Assembly (NCBI RefSeq): GCF_016907055.1
Contig: NZ_JAFBBG010000006.1
Coordinates: 1 to 64,000, forward strand
Direction of reading: 5' to 3'
Source: Paracholeplasma morum
Lineage (GTDB): Bacteria; Bacillota_I; Bacilli_A; Acholeplasmatales; UBA5453
DNA length: 64,000 nt
The notes under the pieces were generated by a model. The model was not told where the DNA came from. It made no database searches and worked only from the letters and a program-made list of their open reading frames with translations. Shown here piece by piece: positions 32,553-38,984 of this stretch (within the stretch, counting starts at the first letter, position 1; each line of letters starts with the position of its first letter). The position numbers and the translations under genes are program-made.

Positions 32553-33704
32553 TTATAATAATTCTTTAAAGAAAGCAACTTTATCTAGTCTTTCCCATGG
32601 TAAGTCAATATCGCTTCTACCCATGTGTCCATAGTTGGCAGTTTGTTCGTAGATCGGACGTTTCAAATCAAGAGACTCAATAATGCCTTTGGGCGTCAAT
32701 CTAAAGTGTTTTCTAACTGTTTCAATGATTAGGTCATCACTAACCTTTGCAGTATTGAAGGTATCAATTCGAATAGACACTGGTTGTGCAACGCCAATTG
32801 CGTATGCTAATTGAACTTCACATTTGGATGCAACCCCACTTGCAACAATATTTTTAGCAATGTATCTTGCCATGTACGAAGCACTTCTATCCACTTTAGA
32901 TGGGTCTTTTCCTGAAAAGGCGCCCCCACCATGTCTAGAATAACCACCATATGTATCCACAATGATTTTACGACCTGTTAGTCCTGAGTCTCCTTTTGGA
33001 CCACCCACGACAAATTTACCAGTAGGGTTAATATAGTATTTAGTGTTTTCATCGACTAAATGTCTAGGGATTACAGCATCGATGACATGTTTTTTGATTG
33101 CATCTCTTACCGTCTCAATGGGAATATCAGCGTGTTGTGAAGACACAACAACTGAATCCACTCTTAAAGGTCTATCGAACTCATCGTATTCAACAGATAC
33201 TTGGGATTTACCATCTGGTCTTAAGAAGTCGACTAAATTAGAGTTTCTAACATCATCTAATCTTCTAACAAGTTGATGCGCCAATTCAATTGGTAGTGGC
33301 ATGAAGTTTTCAGTTTCATCACATGCAAAACCAAACATCAAGCCTTGGTCGCCAGCACCTTGTTCATGCCCATCATATTCATCTACCCCCATGGCAATAT
33401 CTGGAGATTGCGAATTGATTGAGACCAATACTGCTAGATTTTCTGCATCAAAGCCGAATTTTCCACGGTTATAGCCGATTTTAGCAACCGTATTTCTGAC
33501 AATCTCTTGGATGTCAACATAGGTTGTGGTGGTAATTTCACCCATGACCAGTACTAAGCCGGTCGTTACTGTCGTTTCGCAAGCTACTCTTGCGTCTTTA
33601 TCATGTGTTAGAATCGCGTCTAGAATCGCATCCGATAAACGGTCGCAAATCTTATCAGGATGTCCTGATGTTACGGATTCTGATGTAAATAATTTCTTTT
33701 CCAT
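32553..33704 (-). CDS. metK: S-adenosylmethionine synthetase
   Basis: Makes SAM from methionine and ATP. The 383-residue protein has the signatures [31 protein letters not shown] and [16 protein letters not shown]. It is preceded by a SAM-I riboswitch that should stop transcription when SAM is plentiful. A GGAGG ribosome site lies five bases upstream. Confidence 0.97.
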
Positions 33705-33915: not shown

Positions 33916-35196
33916 CTAGTAATCATTAAAGATTTTTTCAAATTCTGATTTAAATTTTAAAAACCTTTCGACCAAGCTATATTCGAAATAGTGTAAGAAA
34001 CTTTTTTCAAAGAGGCTGATAACGGCTTGGTTAGGATAAGGTCTTTTATAGGATTTACTGCTTCTCATTGTTACATACAAATCACAAAGCAATATCACTT
34101 GAGACTGAACGGATGGTTGGATTAAATTCATTCGTTTAACAAATGCCTGGTCTGCTACCCCTTCAACATGAGCTCTTGAAATATCCTCTGCCTTTTGAGC
34201 CAATTGAAGCCTTTTAGCAATCTTAGTTCCCAACAGGGTCGATTCATTTAGCGCTTCATATTGTTGTTCATTAGATAGATTATAGACAATGTCTTCCACT
34301 TCATGGTACCTCAAATGAATGGTTGAGTACTGTCTAATTTGATCAACTTCCTCTAAAGGTAATCCATAATAAATCGCCAGTTTTTCACTCATTCTAAAAA
34401 CTAAATCTACATGTTGACGGTCCAAAAATGCATTTTTAGAAGAAAGAACCACTTTGAATAAATCACTAACGATAGAGGTAAAATTCTCTTGAACCTCTCT
34501 ACGCTTAATTAGTTCTTTCTTACGTTCTTCTTGCATATAGGACCCCATTCCTACAATGGCATAGATAACAATCATGAAGATTGAAAACATAATGATTCTT
34601 AAAAAGAAATCTTGAGAAGCTTTTGTTGGTAAGAATACATCTAAGAACTCTAAGATTGTTAACCCTTTGTAGGTTGAAGTAATGTTGTAAGTTAAAACAA
34701 AATGAATGAACGTAATTCCGGCCAACATGCCTTGAAATGTCCACATGATGAGTTTCTTACTTTGATAAAGTGAAATAACCACGACAGAGTAATAAATCAA
34801 TATATAAGCTACGGTCTCAAAGTTATCGAATAACCTTGCGTATATCAGTATTGATGAAACAAACATATATAGTGCTTCGACATACATCGCGACTTCTTGC
34901 TTGGTTTTATCGTGTCTCTCACCGTATATCAGTCTTTTGATCACATTATTCAGAAAGAATGTGAATGGGAACGATATAAGTGGAAAAAGCCAATCACTTG
35001 GCTGTTTATTTACGCTTGCTATAAATAATAATATGATTGAATAAACGATGTTAGAAAGAAAGATAATGTTTTTAATAACTATATTTCTTCGATGTAACAC
35101 CATGACATCATCTGTAATATCGATACCTGATTCGAATCCAAACAAGCTAGCAAAAAAGTTTTTAGTAAATTTAGTTAAATTGTCTTTCTTTTTCAC
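33916..35196 (-). CDS. Membrane protein with degenerate HD-GYP-like domain
   Basis: The 426-residue protein has about six hydrophobic helices in residues 40-218 and a cytoplasmic domain from about 235. The domain follows the HD-GYP layout (DRQHVDLVFRMSEKLAIYYGLPLEEVDQI ... ILLCDLYVTMRSSKSYKRPY). However, the metal-binding HD pair (usually LHDIGK) is replaced by IHLRYHEV and the GYP loop is not recognisable. It is therefore probably not an active c-di-GMP phosphodiesterase. The start is GTG 35196 with GGAGG six bases upstream. It lies 20 bases after pgpA. Confidence 0.7.
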   Translation of the reverse strand: MKKKDNLTKFTKNFFASLFGFESGIDITDDVMVLHRRNIVIKNIIFLSNIVYSIILLFIASVNKQPSDWLFPLISFPFTFFLNNVIKRLIYGERHDKTKQEVAMYVEALYMFVSSILIYARLFDNFETVAYILIYYSVVVISLYQSKKLIMWTFQGMLAGITFIHFVLTYNITSTYKGLTILEFLDVFLPTKASQDFFLRIIMFSIFMIVIYAIVGMGSYMQEERKKELIKRREVQENFTSIVSDLFKVVLSSKNAFLDRQHVDLVFRMSEKLAIYYGLPLEEVDQIRQYSTIHLRYHEVEDIVYNLSNEQQYEALNESTLLGTKIAKRLQLAQKAEDISRAHVEGVADQAFVKRMNLIQPSVQSQVILLCDLYVTMRSSKSYKRPYPNQAVISLFEKSFLHYFEYSLVERFLKFKSEFEKIFNDY

Positions 35197-35216: not shown

Positions 35217-35768
35217 TTAGTCAAACAATGAAATGGCTTTATGAGGCTCCTCGTGGGCAATATCTTCATTGATTACTTGAGCAACGCGTGTTGAAGCTGC
35301 CGCTGCTATTGCGCCAACAATATCATCAAGGAATGTATGAACGATTCCCTCTTTTTTACCATCTTCGTTTAATCTAGAAACGATACCGTGCTTATTAACA
35401 TCAATATCACCAAAGTTTGTCATGCCGATAACACCATAAAGTCTAGCAACATCAAGGCCTAAAACTTCATCGACTCCAAATAACCCTAGGTCTTGTTCAA
35501 TGATGTCTTGAATTGGACCTCTAAATAGTTTTTGTTCAGCCATTCTATCAAGTTCAACAGCTAGTAAAACATGGTGGAAAATATCTCTTAAAGATAAAAT
35601 CTTCAAGACCGACTCCCTACAAGTTTCAAAACGAATATTGGACGTATAACGCGCTTGTTGTTGGTATGCAATTTTCGCAATCTCATCAATTTCAACGCCT
35701 CTACTCTTTAATGCTTCGACACAAAGACGTGCCATTTCTTCTCTACTGAAAAGTACTTTTTTCTTCAT
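35217..35768 (-). CDS. Phosphatidylglycerophosphatase A-like protein (YutG type)
   Basis: PgpA/YutG-family protein, predicted to dephosphorylate phosphatidylglycerophosphate or a related lipid phosphate. The 183-residue sequence has SREEMARLCVEALKSRGV at the start and the conserved TFLDDIVGAIAAAASTRVAQ at the C-terminus. Its ATG overlaps the fmt TGA (ATGA). This soluble Gram-positive form differs from E. coli PgpA in lacking clear membrane helices. Confidence 0.75.
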   Translation of the reverse strand: MKKKVLFSREEMARLCVEALKSRGVEIDEIAKIAYQQQARYTSNIRFETCRESVLKILSLRDIFHHVLLAVELDRMAEQKLFRGPIQDIIEQDLGLFGVDEVLGLDVARLYGVIGMTNFGDIDVNKHGIVSRLNEDGKKEGIVHTFLDDIVGAIAAAASTRVAQVINEDIAHEEPHKAISLFD

Positions 35769-36682
35769 TGGTTAAATATATCTCCCTTTTTTAAAATTTT
35801 TTGTCCATTTAAAAAGTCAGTTGTTGCCATAATTTTTTTGTTTTCTGGTTGAATCTTTGTAATAGATACAGCCCCATCAGCGGTGCAGACAATTAGTTCT
35901 TTTCTGTCGCTAATGATTTCGCCCGGCTTTCCAGTTACAATTATATCACTTTTTTTCATTTCATACACCTTAATCCGTACATTATTAATGAAAATTGAGC
36001 CTGCCGGTTGAGGTAAAAGTGATCTTAAATGGTTGATTATGCTATCTGAATTCATGTTAAAATCTAAAGTTTCTTCTTCTGGTTTAATATTGTATGCAAA
36101 AGAAACCAGTGATTCATCTTGCTTAATACGATTATTTGTCCCTTTGATTACACTATCTAGTTCTTCTTCTAGAAGTTCTTTTGCAAGCATACTCAGTTTA
36201 TTCATTAAGGTTTCTGTAGTATCTTCGGGGAAAATTTCCGTTTCTTTTTTAGCAATCATATCGCCAGCATCCATTTTTTGAGCCATGTACATTAAAGTAA
36301 CGCCAGTCACAGTATCTCCGTTTTTGATGGCATATTGTACTGGTGCGCCTCCACGGTACTTAGGCAGTAGACTTCCATGTAGATTTAATGAGATTGCTGA
36401 ATCCAAAATAACATTTGGAATCATTTGCCCATATGCTGCAGTAATGATTAAATCAGGTTTAACATCCAATATGGTTTGATAATCCTGTCTCATTTTAATC
36501 GGTTGAAAAACAGGAATATTGTGCTCGAGAGCATACTTTTTAACTGGACTGTGTTCAATCTCACCTTTACGTCCAATCTTTTTATCAGGTTGTGTCACAA
36601 CCAGTTTTACCCCGTAGGTTACGTGCAAATAAGCCAAAGACGGCACTGCATAACTTGGGGTTCCCATGAATACTATGTTCAT
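35765..36682 (-). CDS. fmt: Methionyl-tRNA formyltransferase
   Basis: Formylates initiator Met-tRNA using formyl-tetrahydrofolate. The 305-residue protein starts MNIVFMGTPSYAVPSL and contains GSLLPKYRGGAPVQYAI, the catalytic loop. I chose ATG 36682 (GAGGAGG seven bases upstream) over 36727. It lies 13 bases after priA, as in many Firmicutes. Confidence 0.95.
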   Translation of the reverse strand: MNIVFMGTPSYAVPSLAYLHVTYGVKLVVTQPDKKIGRKGEIEHSPVKKYALEHNIPVFQPIKMRQDYQTILDVKPDLIITAAYGQMIPNVILDSAISLNLHGSLLPKYRGGAPVQYAIKNGDTVTGVTLMYMAQKMDAGDMIAKKETEIFPEDTTETLMNKLSMLAKELLEEELDSVIKGTNNRIKQDESLVSFAYNIKPEEETLDFNMNSDSIINHLRSLLPQPAGSIFINNVRIKVYEMKKSDIIVTGKPGEIISDRKELIVCTADGAVSITKIQPENKKIMATTDFLNGQKILKKGDIFNQ

Positions 36683-36695
36683 AGCATTACCTCCT

Positions 36696-38984
36696 CTATA
36701 AGAAATCCTCGTAAGGATTGATGTCAATAAATAAGTGTTTATATTTTAGTTTAAGATTTCTTAATACTGGCGTTAAATCTAAACGCTTCGGTGCTTTAAT
36801 CGTTAAGTTAGAATAAAATAAGCCATTTGCATAATGGATGAATGAATCACTTGGACCTAAGACTGTATACTGTGAATGTGTCTTAATGATATCCCTTTTT
36901 ATTCTGTTTAGGGTTTCGTCTAGTTCATCTTCATTCTTATGTCCAAACCTAATTTGAACCATGTTCGTAAAAGGGGGGAAATGCCCCAGACGTCTGTTTT
37001 CAAGTTCCTGAGTATAAAACACTTCGTAAGGCTCACTTAGGGATTCAAATACAAAATGATTCGGACTATACGTCTGTATTAGGCTAAGGCCATCCTGATA
37101 GCGTCCACTTCTGCCAATCATTTGTTTCAAGAGGTTATAGGTGTGTTCATTTGCCAAATAACTTGGTAGTTTAAGCCCAAGTTCAGCTAACATCACTGCA
37201 CTTAGTGATACATCAAAATCATGCCCTTTGGCAATGAGTTGTGTCCCAATCAAAACATCATACTCTTTTTCTTTAAATAGGAAGAGCATCTCTTCTGCCT
37301 TCGTTTTATTAGCGACATCACTATCCAAACGAATGACTTTCTTTTGATTGAATGTTTCTTTAAATGACTGTTCTACTTGTTCAATGCCAGTTCCAACCGG
37401 TTTGATTTTATTGGAATTACAGGAAGGACAAGTGTTTCTGACTGGATAGTTTTTTCCACAGTGATGACATATTAGTTTGTTTTTTTGCTTGTGATAGACT
37501 AGGTTTGTCAAGCATGTATCACAGATTGGTACAAACCCACATTCTCTACACATCATAAAATTCGCATAGCCTCGTCTATTAACAAGAATCATCGCTTGTT
37601 CTTTAGGTTTAAGCCCGTTGATTCCTTTTTTTAGATCATTAGAAAACATCGATAAATTACCATTTAATAGTTCTTGTTTCATGTCAACAATTCGGATAGT
37701 TCTCAATGTGTTTCTGATTGATTTTTCTAATCCAAGATAAGTCATTTTCCCCATCTGTGAATCATAGTATTGAACAATTGTTGGGGTAGCAGTTGATAAA
37801 ATTAGGGGTAAATTCATTTGTCTAGATAACACTTGGGCAATTTCATTTGAATCATATCTTGGTTGATTAGCTTCGATATAATTTGAATCATGACATTCAT
37901 CGATTATGATTGCTCCAAGCTCTTTAAACGGCAAGAATAGTGCTTGTTTTGTCCCGATGATTACATTCGCATCGTTCTCTTTGATTGCACGCCAAGTGTC
38001 ATATCGCTCTTGCGATGAGAGCTTAGAATGAATGATATAAACATCCTCAAATGATAACTCAAAGTAAGCGGCCATTTGGAACACTTGGGTTACTTCTGGA
38101 ACAATGATTAAAATAGGTTTATTCCCTAGTTTCTTCTTAACTTCAACAAATACTTCAGTTTTACCAGAACTTACCACTCCATGTAGTAAGAAGCGCTTAT
38201 ATTCTCCGATACTTTTACTTATTTCACTAATTGCATTCGTTTGTTCTTGTGTCAGTATGATGGACTCAGTTTTCTTTTGATACAATAAGCGACTCTTTCG
38301 CTTTTTTTCAACAAGATGATATGAAAGTACACCTTGTTCTAAAAGCGTATTTATTATACTTTTAGATATGCCTTCTTCTAGCAAACTAGATTCTTTATCG
38401 ATACCACTTTTGATTAGCTGAATGATTTGTTGTCTTTTTTCAGTCAATACTTTCGGATGATTCTTGACACTATATTGTTTTTCATATTGGATGCTTTTTC
38501 GGTCTTTATAAGTGTCTACTAAAAGAAGCATACCTTCTTCAACTTGAGACTTAACTTTTTTCAATAATGACGGTGAGAGCTCATCTAGATAGACTGTCTT
38601 ATTGGCAATCATTTCTGTCCAAAATGCATTACTCTTATCGGTTAGTAAGAGCTGTTTGCGATAATCCAGATGAAGTCCTAAAGGCACAATTAGGGAAAAA
38701 GCCATCGCTTTACTTACGAAAGATCTCGATTCAATATAGTCTATAAGTTTAAGCTGGGAATCGTTCACGATTGGTGCCATATCTAGAACTGTTAATATCT
38801 CTTTGTTTGCATCAATAGAAGTCTTTGTAAGTTCAATGACTAACCCAAGTCTTTTTTGATAACCAAAAGGTACATAAACACGCATGCCAACTTTTAAAAT
38901 CCCTACCATACTGGAAGGGACTATGTAGTCATAGGTAGATTCAATTTCTTGAGTTTTTAAATCAATAATGACTTTTGCAAACAT
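36696..38984 (-). CDS. priA: Primosomal helicase PriA
   Basis: 3'-5' helicase that restarts stalled replication forks. The 762-residue protein has an N-terminal 3'BD-like domain (MFAKVIIDLKTQEIESTYDY), Walker A GVVSSGKTEV, the DEAH-type box IIIDECHDS, and the zinc-binding cysteines CRECG, CDTC, CHHCG and CPSC. GTQLIAKGHDFD is helicase motif V. First gene of the priA-fmt-pgpA-HD operon. Confidence 0.96.
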   Translation of the reverse strand: MFAKVIIDLKTQEIESTYDYIVPSSMVGILKVGMRVYVPFGYQKRLGLVIELTKTSIDANKEILTVLDMAPIVNDSQLKLIDYIESRSFVSKAMAFSLIVPLGLHLDYRKQLLLTDKSNAFWTEMIANKTVYLDELSPSLLKKVKSQVEEGMLLLVDTYKDRKSIQYEKQYSVKNHPKVLTEKRQQIIQLIKSGIDKESSLLEEGISKSIINTLLEQGVLSYHLVEKKRKSRLLYQKKTESIILTQEQTNAISEISKSIGEYKRFLLHGVVSSGKTEVFVEVKKKLGNKPILIIVPEVTQVFQMAAYFELSFEDVYIIHSKLSSQERYDTWRAIKENDANVIIGTKQALFLPFKELGAIIIDECHDSNYIEANQPRYDSNEIAQVLSRQMNLPLILSTATPTIVQYYDSQMGKMTYLGLEKSIRNTLRTIRIVDMKQELLNGNLSMFSNDLKKGINGLKPKEQAMILVNRRGYANFMMCRECGFVPICDTCLTNLVYHKQKNKLICHHCGKNYPVRNTCPSCNSNKIKPVGTGIEQVEQSFKETFNQKKVIRLDSDVANKTKAEEMLFLFKEKEYDVLIGTQLIAKGHDFDVSLSAVMLAELGLKLPSYLANEHTYNLLKQMIGRSGRYQDGLSLIQTYSPNHFVFESLSEPYEVFYTQELENRRLGHFPPFTNMVQIRFGHKNEDELDETLNRIKRDIIKTHSQYTVLGPSDSFIHYANGLFYSNLTIKAPKRLDLTPVLRNLKLKYKHLFIDINPYEDFL

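Follow-up and report, generated by a model that had tools for sequence, protein, structure and literature searches.

The window analysed here comprises the first 64,000 nucleotides of contig NZ_JAFBBG010000006.1 from Paracholeplasma morum, whose genome assembly of 1.56 Mb in 29 contigs is 99% complete. Its minus strand encodes a protein that contains CDLYVTMRSSKSYKRPY (translation of the ORF) and is termed here the 6TM pseudo-HD-GYP protein (Table 1). Among relatives assigned to a named species, the closest is a protein of Paracholeplasma vituli (72% identity), and a metagenome-assembled Acholeplasmataceae genome encodes a relative with 77% identity. A first-pass annotation, made from the sequence alone, had described a membrane HD-GYP-like ORF at this place; its coordinates are exact, and profile and fold matches agree with the description. 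The coupling to pgpA, fmt and priA that it also proposed is seen in the spacing of the genes, with a gap of 20 bp to the pgpA-like gene and with overlaps between pgpA and fmt and between fmt and priA. The names fmt and priA are presumptive and follow that annotation, and the downstream gene we take to be metK from its sequence, a name that fits with the SAM riboswitch preceding it; neither metK nor the riboswitch is mentioned in that annotation. The position of this riboswitch between the two genes suggests that metK may form a transcription unit of its own.

Table 1. Features of the pseudo-HD-GYP locus, in positions of the window
Feature	Position	Strand	Basis or remark
metK (presumed)	32553..33704	(-)	downstream neighbour, conserved
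SAM riboswitch RF00162	33758..33852	(-)	55.8 bits, E 3.5e-10; between pseudo-HD-GYP gene and metK
6TM pseudo-HD-GYP protein gene	33916..35196	(-)	426 aa, GTG start
Degenerate HD-GYP domain, residues about 260-426	33919..34419	(-)	profile, fold, ligand alignment
N-terminal membrane domain and long helix, residues 1-253	34438..35196	(-)	predicted models, fold matches
pgpA-like gene	35217..35768	(-)	PF04608, E 1.1e-14; 20 bp upstream of pseudo-HD-GYP gene
fmt (presumed)	35765..36727	(-)	overlaps pgpA-like gene; synteny conserved
priA (presumed)	36696..38984	(-)	overlaps fmt; synteny conserved

The C-terminal half of the protein is homologous to HD-GYP domains. The 426-aa protein gave nothing above the Pfam cut-offs, and the copies of Pfam and NCBIfam that were searched contain no model of the family itself. 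Among curated profiles, NCBIfam NosR (NF053512; E 5.9e-4, residues 232-420) matches the C-terminal half best, with a score of 19 bits that lies far below the curated cut-off of 400; this profile matches 55 of 70 orthologs at E<=0.01, and Pfam HD_5 matches 22 of the 70 at E<=1, the 426-aa protein itself not among them. Conversely, searching with a profile built from the 70 orthologs recovers two HD-GYP structures, 4mcw (PmGH, E 2e-7) and 4r8z (PA4781, E 1.1e-3). The source genome has seven HD loci, of which two encode canonical HD-GYP proteins that retain HDIGK and HHExxDGTGYP; both are also retrieved by a profile of all relatives. Together, these matches establish that the homology is real and more than chance. 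The likeness to the NosR-type c-di-GMP phosphodiesterases consists in the profile match, whereas that family is named as a response regulator and the Paracholeplasma protein is predicted to be membrane-bound. At the level of fold, the C-terminal half of the model matches 4mcw with Z 12.2 (with a large rmsd, because this match also includes residues from 124), DvhD (9rbz) with Z 11.2 and 4r8z with Z 11.1. A fold search with the whole model returned high probabilities for HD-GYP chains only (ranks 1-9), and was uninformative for the membrane half. Profile search and structure prediction, which the first-pass annotation had put forward as checks, thus assign the HD-GYP fold to residues about 260-426.

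The metal site of this domain is degenerate throughout the family. The active HD-GYP protein PmGH, to which the family is related in both fold and sequence, is reported to hold a tri-iron site with eight ligands (E185, H189, H221, D222, H250, H276, H277 and D305), and their individual replacement by Ala is described as essentially abolishing activity, except for E185 and D305, where activity was markedly reduced (PMC4159591). Among 89 full-length relatives, the equivalent ligand is kept in 7 for E185, 45 for H189, 78 for H221, 56 for H276 and 61 for D305, and in none for D222, H250 and H277. No relative keeps more than four of the eight: four are found in 39 relatives, including the window protein (H262, H294, H343 and D372), fewer in 50, and none at all in six. 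The window protein is without equivalents of E185, D222, H250 and H277 and without a GYP motif, and HD, HH or GYP/GFP occur at the aligned motif places in none of the 89. These counts exclude L117, a sequence cut by a contig end that was included in the per-column information below; L040, a split gene, was likewise dropped before counting. The view that the HD and GYP motifs have been replaced and catalysis thereby lost is therefore upheld as far as sequence goes, as three ligands indispensable to PmGH are missing throughout. An intact metal site can be ruled out where the motifs would lie; with a looser pattern, 20 of 90 aligned sequences contain an HD dipeptide, though not at the HD motif. 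Because the metal ligands are lost, cyclic-dinucleotide phosphodiesterase activity is predicted to be absent.

A different set of residues has been conserved. R329, Y374 and R378, none of which is a metal ligand, are invariant in all 89 relatives, as are D26, N38, Q100, Y131, R225 and E228; Y383 is kept in 87, and K384 and R341 in 85 each. Position 319, the equivalent of H250, is Lys in 61 of the 89, so that a positive side chain replaces a metal ligand, and position 381 is Lys or Arg in 66. Position 297 (equivalent to K225) is mostly Tyr within the order, and Lys or Arg in 11 of 13 relatives from families f7, f16, f23 and f24. The conserved basic residues may line a single pocket.

The N-terminal half was modelled as a six-helix membrane domain. 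AlphaFold2 on a 70-row alignment (pLDDT 85.9, pTM 0.62) gave membrane helices at residues 30-63, 66-92, 97-122, 127-142 and 147-169, and a sixth from 192 that continues as a long helix to residue 252, where the HD-type bundle follows; modelled alone, the membrane half reached pLDDT 86.4 and pTM 0.79. In VIA-align 2, its three best fold matches were human adenylyl cyclase 5 (8sl4; Z 14.2, 204 residues, 4.2 A), the Pseudomonas diguanylate cyclase ImcA (8wcn; Z 13.3, 213 residues, 5.5 A) and adenylyl cyclase 8 (8buz; Z 10.1, 207 residues, 4.5 A), at identities of 7-11%, and the next row had Z 8.2; for helical bundles, a best Z of 14 is possible without a clear relative. Foldseek with the membrane half alone gave nothing significant (best E 1.5), so that the assignment rests on VIA-align 2, and no cyclase-type Pfam membrane family was among the matches listed for 70 members (25 of 52 families). 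That the three best rows are all membrane domains of nucleotide cyclases supports a six-helix fold of nucleotide-cyclase type for the modelled membrane half, with helix 6 extending into the cytosol. Conservation is distributed over both halves of the protein: information per column is 2.6-2.9 bits in membrane helices 1, 3, 4 and 6 and the long helix, which match or surpass the HD half with its 2.7 bits at the best part (residues 312-345) and 1.8-2.5 bits elsewhere; membrane helices 2 and 5 (2.3-2.4 bits) fall below that best part.

Adenylyl cyclases 5 and 8 and ImcA resemble the Paracholeplasma protein in having a six-helix membrane domain ahead of a cytosolic signalling domain, but their output is an active cyclase domain, in place of which the Paracholeplasma protein has a dead phosphodiesterase domain. 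ImcA is described as a homodimer in which the N-terminal 6TM domain is joined to the GGDEF domain via a hinge loop (PMC10904736), whereas a long helix connects the two modules in our model; in membrane adenylyl cyclases, helix 6 is reported to extend into a coiled coil (PMC9433096). Lipids have been reported to act on membrane domains of cyclase type (PMC12505454, PMC11606603).

The family is widespread in the order. Matches at E<=1e-3 were found in 129 of 160 order genomes, and orthologs were counted in 125 of these 160, in families f1 to f5, because G096, G104, G109 and G143 match weakly through canonical-looking HD-GYP proteins; contig ends truncate some of the 125. Genus g15 (29 genomes of 0.3-0.9 Mb, a size like that of phytoplasmas) has an ortholog in none. 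A survey of the class found matches in 139 of 395 genomes, 47 of them within the order; outside it, 63 genomes match at E<1e-20 (families f7, f12, f16, f23 and f24) and 29 more weakly. At phylum level, a profile of the membrane half matched 56 of 392 genomes, three of these only at E 0.005-0.009; the strong rows are frames of 414-552 aa, and four weak rows (E 0.002-0.009) might include a fusion to another output. Plasmid records yielded two HD-type proteins only. In the open-licence literature searched, no description of a 6TM pseudo-HD-GYP family and no paper on HD-GYP proteins in Acholeplasma was found. The 6TM pseudo-HD-GYP proteins are a real and conserved family, of a kind, namely receptors made from dead cyclic-dinucleotide enzymes, that is already known. 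Receptors with dead GGDEF and EAL domains, such as LapD, are familiar examples.

Two variants were seen outside the order. Four genomes of family f12 carry a divergent paralog of 410-414 aa (L153:4981-6219 (+), L154, L155 and L156), which in L153 has no Pfam match at E<=0.1 and in L153 and L154 lies between genes that we take to be rsmG and noc/parA/parB from their resemblance to these. The frames of L104-L112, relatives from f16 and f24, are 520-550 aa long, with about 80-100 extra N-terminal residues.

The genomic neighbourhood is conserved as well. When fifteen genes of the window were sought in 60 loci, 54 had metK as the first of these genes on the downstream side (39 of 40 order loci, all six f12 loci and 9 of 14 others). 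The upstream neighbour is fmt in 21 and pgpA in 19 of the 40 order loci; outside the order it is pgpA in 13 of the 14 others, and none of the sought genes in the six f12 loci. In nine f16, f23 and f24 loci with metK, the stop-to-stop frames range from an overlap of 24 bp to a distance of 4 bp, and in L054 and three f12 loci the gene lies 1.4-4.7 kb before metK; an intervening gene is present in L101. The six loci missing metK include two cut by contig ends (L108 and L117) and four that are not cut so near (L078, L106, L107 and L116). A scan of 13 other loci found a SAM riboswitch downstream towards metK in seven (L013, L041, L044, L046, L050, L101 and L102) and elsewhere in L060, and none at gathering score in L066, L080, L104, L110 and L113. 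PgpA had no match in any of 58 f3 and f4 genomes, 54 of which keep the pseudo-HD-GYP protein, and a strict tie to PgpA is thereby ruled out. Simple inheritance of the gene order might explain the linkage to housekeeping genes. Many f1 and f2 genomes have a second PgpA elsewhere; where only one was found, for instance in genus g18, it is often a divergent copy linked to the pseudo-HD-GYP gene.

Cyclic dinucleotide signalling is common in these bacteria. The source genome has 13 GGDEF domains, a GGDEF match is present in 128 of 160 order genomes, and 14 proteins with GGDEF and/or EAL domains are reported for A. laidlawii (PMC2408644). GGDEF was searched for again in 21 genomes, comprising 19 outside g15 whose best match was absent or no stronger than 2.3e-12, and two of g15; for the other 27 of the 29 g15 genomes, the result is that of the first survey, in which they had no GGDEF match. 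Four of the 21 gave no match at E<=1, and the other 17 gave 25 matches, in none of whose frames the motif [GS]G(D/E)(E/Q)(F/Y/L/M) occurs. As a control, seven of eight strong GGDEF matches of the source genome contain this motif; control locus L086 was uninformative, since its GGDEF frame is not the longest. All 19 genomes in which the search found no GG(D/E)EF motif carry the pseudo-HD-GYP protein, ten of them being at least 90% complete. The 11 of these proteins that were aligned have D26, N38, Q100, Y131, R225, E228, R329, Y374, R378, Y383 and K384 intact; one of them has Phe in place of R341, two depart from H294, and position 381 varies. A function resting on c-di-GMP alone is therefore unlikely, and we reject such an exclusive dependence, given that protein and conserved residues persist in these genomes, several of which are incomplete; contigs may be missing, or c-di-GMP may come from outside. 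The c-di-AMP cyclase DAC is found in 139 of 160 order genomes, in 27 of 29 g15 genomes and in 16 of the 19 motif-less genomes, a distribution that neither explains nor excludes a tie to c-di-AMP.

DvhD of Desulfovibrio vulgaris is the closest precedent for the pseudo-HD-GYP protein. DvhD is described as a membrane protein whose HD-GYP domain has SQ in place of HD and Met and Asn in place of two His, and it is reported to bind c-di-GMP without hydrolysing it, which makes it a structurally solved example of a dead HD-GYP receptor or switch (PMC13090378). Both are membrane proteins, the Paracholeplasma one by prediction, and both have a dead HD-GYP domain with HD and HH motifs replaced. The stretch R-S-Y-R, which belongs to the metal-free ligand site of DvhD, aligns with K-S-Y-K of the Paracholeplasma protein, R650, Y652 and R653 corresponding to K381, Y383 and K384. 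Y621 of the GYP motif and K582, however, correspond to Ala351 and Tyr297, and DvhD as described has a periplasmic dCache domain and a PAS domain and keeps GYP, whereas the Paracholeplasma protein has the six-helix membrane domain and has lost GYP.

Several accounts of the protein can be weighed against this evidence. Kinship to the 7TM-HD families, against which the first-pass annotation had proposed a profile search, is not supported. Proteins of the 7TMR-HD (PgpH) type have an extracellular 7TMR-HDED domain followed by seven helices; six helices of cyclase type were modelled here, with 29 residues before the first, and no 7TMR-HD model was among the Pfam matches listed (25 of 52 families), and we reject membership. 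That the protein is a c-di-AMP phosphodiesterase of PgpH type, as the succession of membrane helices and an HD-type domain might suggest, is accordingly a negligible prospect, the active site being lost as well. It is also very improbable that the protein has retained phosphohydrolase activity through a reduced, mononuclear metal site formed by H262, H294, H343 and D372: the 39 relatives with four ligands would allow it, but the majority keep fewer, some keep none, and the residues common to all 89 are not metal ligands. A role in regulating or anchoring MetK or the PgpA-like phosphatase, whose genes are conserved neighbours, would account for the constancy of metK downstream and of pgpA upstream, and for the near-touching or overlapping frames with metK in nine loci. 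We consider this improbable, as four loci lie at some distance from metK and six are without it, most f3 and f4 genomes keep the protein with no PgpA match, and the riboswitch in the window suggests a separate metK unit.

Binding of a nucleotide deserves somewhat more weight, though we judge each of its two forms unlikely. The protein might be a c-di-GMP receptor of the DvhD type, whose dead HD-GYP domain would need no metal to bind c-di-GMP and would signal through the membrane. The equivalents of R650, Y652 and R653 are largely kept across the family (K/R at 381, Y383 and K384, as counted above), the K582 position is basic in most f7, f16, f23 and f24 relatives, 9rbz is among the best fold matches of the C-terminal half, and GGDEF domains abound in the source genome and the order. 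Yet the Y621 and K582 equivalents in the window protein are Ala and Tyr, GYP/GFP is absent from all 89 relatives, the periplasmic sensor domain and the PAS domain of DvhD are missing, and the 19 genomes without a GG(D/E)EF motif found retain the protein, with Y383 and K384 kept in the 11 aligned. The alternative ligand would be another nucleotide such as c-di-AMP, which the protein would link to the membrane. This is consistent with the prevalence of DAC, including in most motif-less genomes, and with the basic and aromatic residues that persist in the HD half. However, three genomes that carry the protein have no DAC match (G083, 68% complete; G125, 92%; and G159, 80%), and g15 has DAC in nearly all of its genomes and the protein in none. 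To either form of binding we would give the same low credence.

We lean, by a modest degree, towards a membrane receptor or scaffold in which a six-helix domain of cyclase type is joined by a long helix to a catalytically dead HD-GYP domain. With its HD-GYP active site lost, the protein is probably a sensor or scaffold, not an enzyme; the first-pass annotation had suggested a binding or scaffolding role or, alternatively, a sensor of membrane tension. Two copies would pair through the long helix, and the membrane domain may sense the state of the membrane or its lipids, or else a ligand in the bilayer; the cyclase-type domain predicted by the model makes it plausible that the signal comes from the membrane or its lipids. 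A change in the helix pair could then re-pose the pseudo-HD-GYP domains, whose output might be the binding of a protein partner or an anionic ligand. Binding would take place where metals formerly sat, at a site with many Arg, Lys and Tyr residues that perhaps form a single pocket. More tentatively, and as a possibility that we hold short of probable, this receptor with its dead phosphodiesterase effector could be a core protein of the Acholeplasmatales and related Bacilli that reads lipid state, acts via a basic, metal-free pocket or protein contact independently of c-di-GMP, and persists in reduced genomes after c-di-GMP signalling has gone.

Here a dead domain is standard, being shared by all 89 aligned members of a family that extends over five families within the order and five outside it. 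It thus offers a test case, in simple cells, for two ideas: that a pseudo-phosphodiesterase may abandon cyclic dinucleotide signalling completely, and that cyclase-type six-helix domains are general membrane or lipid receptors. Acholeplasmas are described as wall-less organisms favoured for membrane studies (PMC2408644).

The search for GGDEF domains also brought up other proteins. Frames of about 810-1024 aa with a weak GGDEF-like stretch and no motif (L129, L130, L134 and L136-L141) are kept in genomes that yielded no GG(D/E)EF motif. Proteins of 500-535 aa (L118-L128, L133 and L135) carry a GGDEF-like domain without the motif and are, judged from their sequences, a second conserved and putatively dead signalling protein of the order. 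That of L118 matches PF00990 (E 2.5e-11), with weak PAS matches and a hydrophobic N-terminus, and for several of these 500-535 aa proteins the gene for the c-di-AMP cyclase lies less than 2 kb away.
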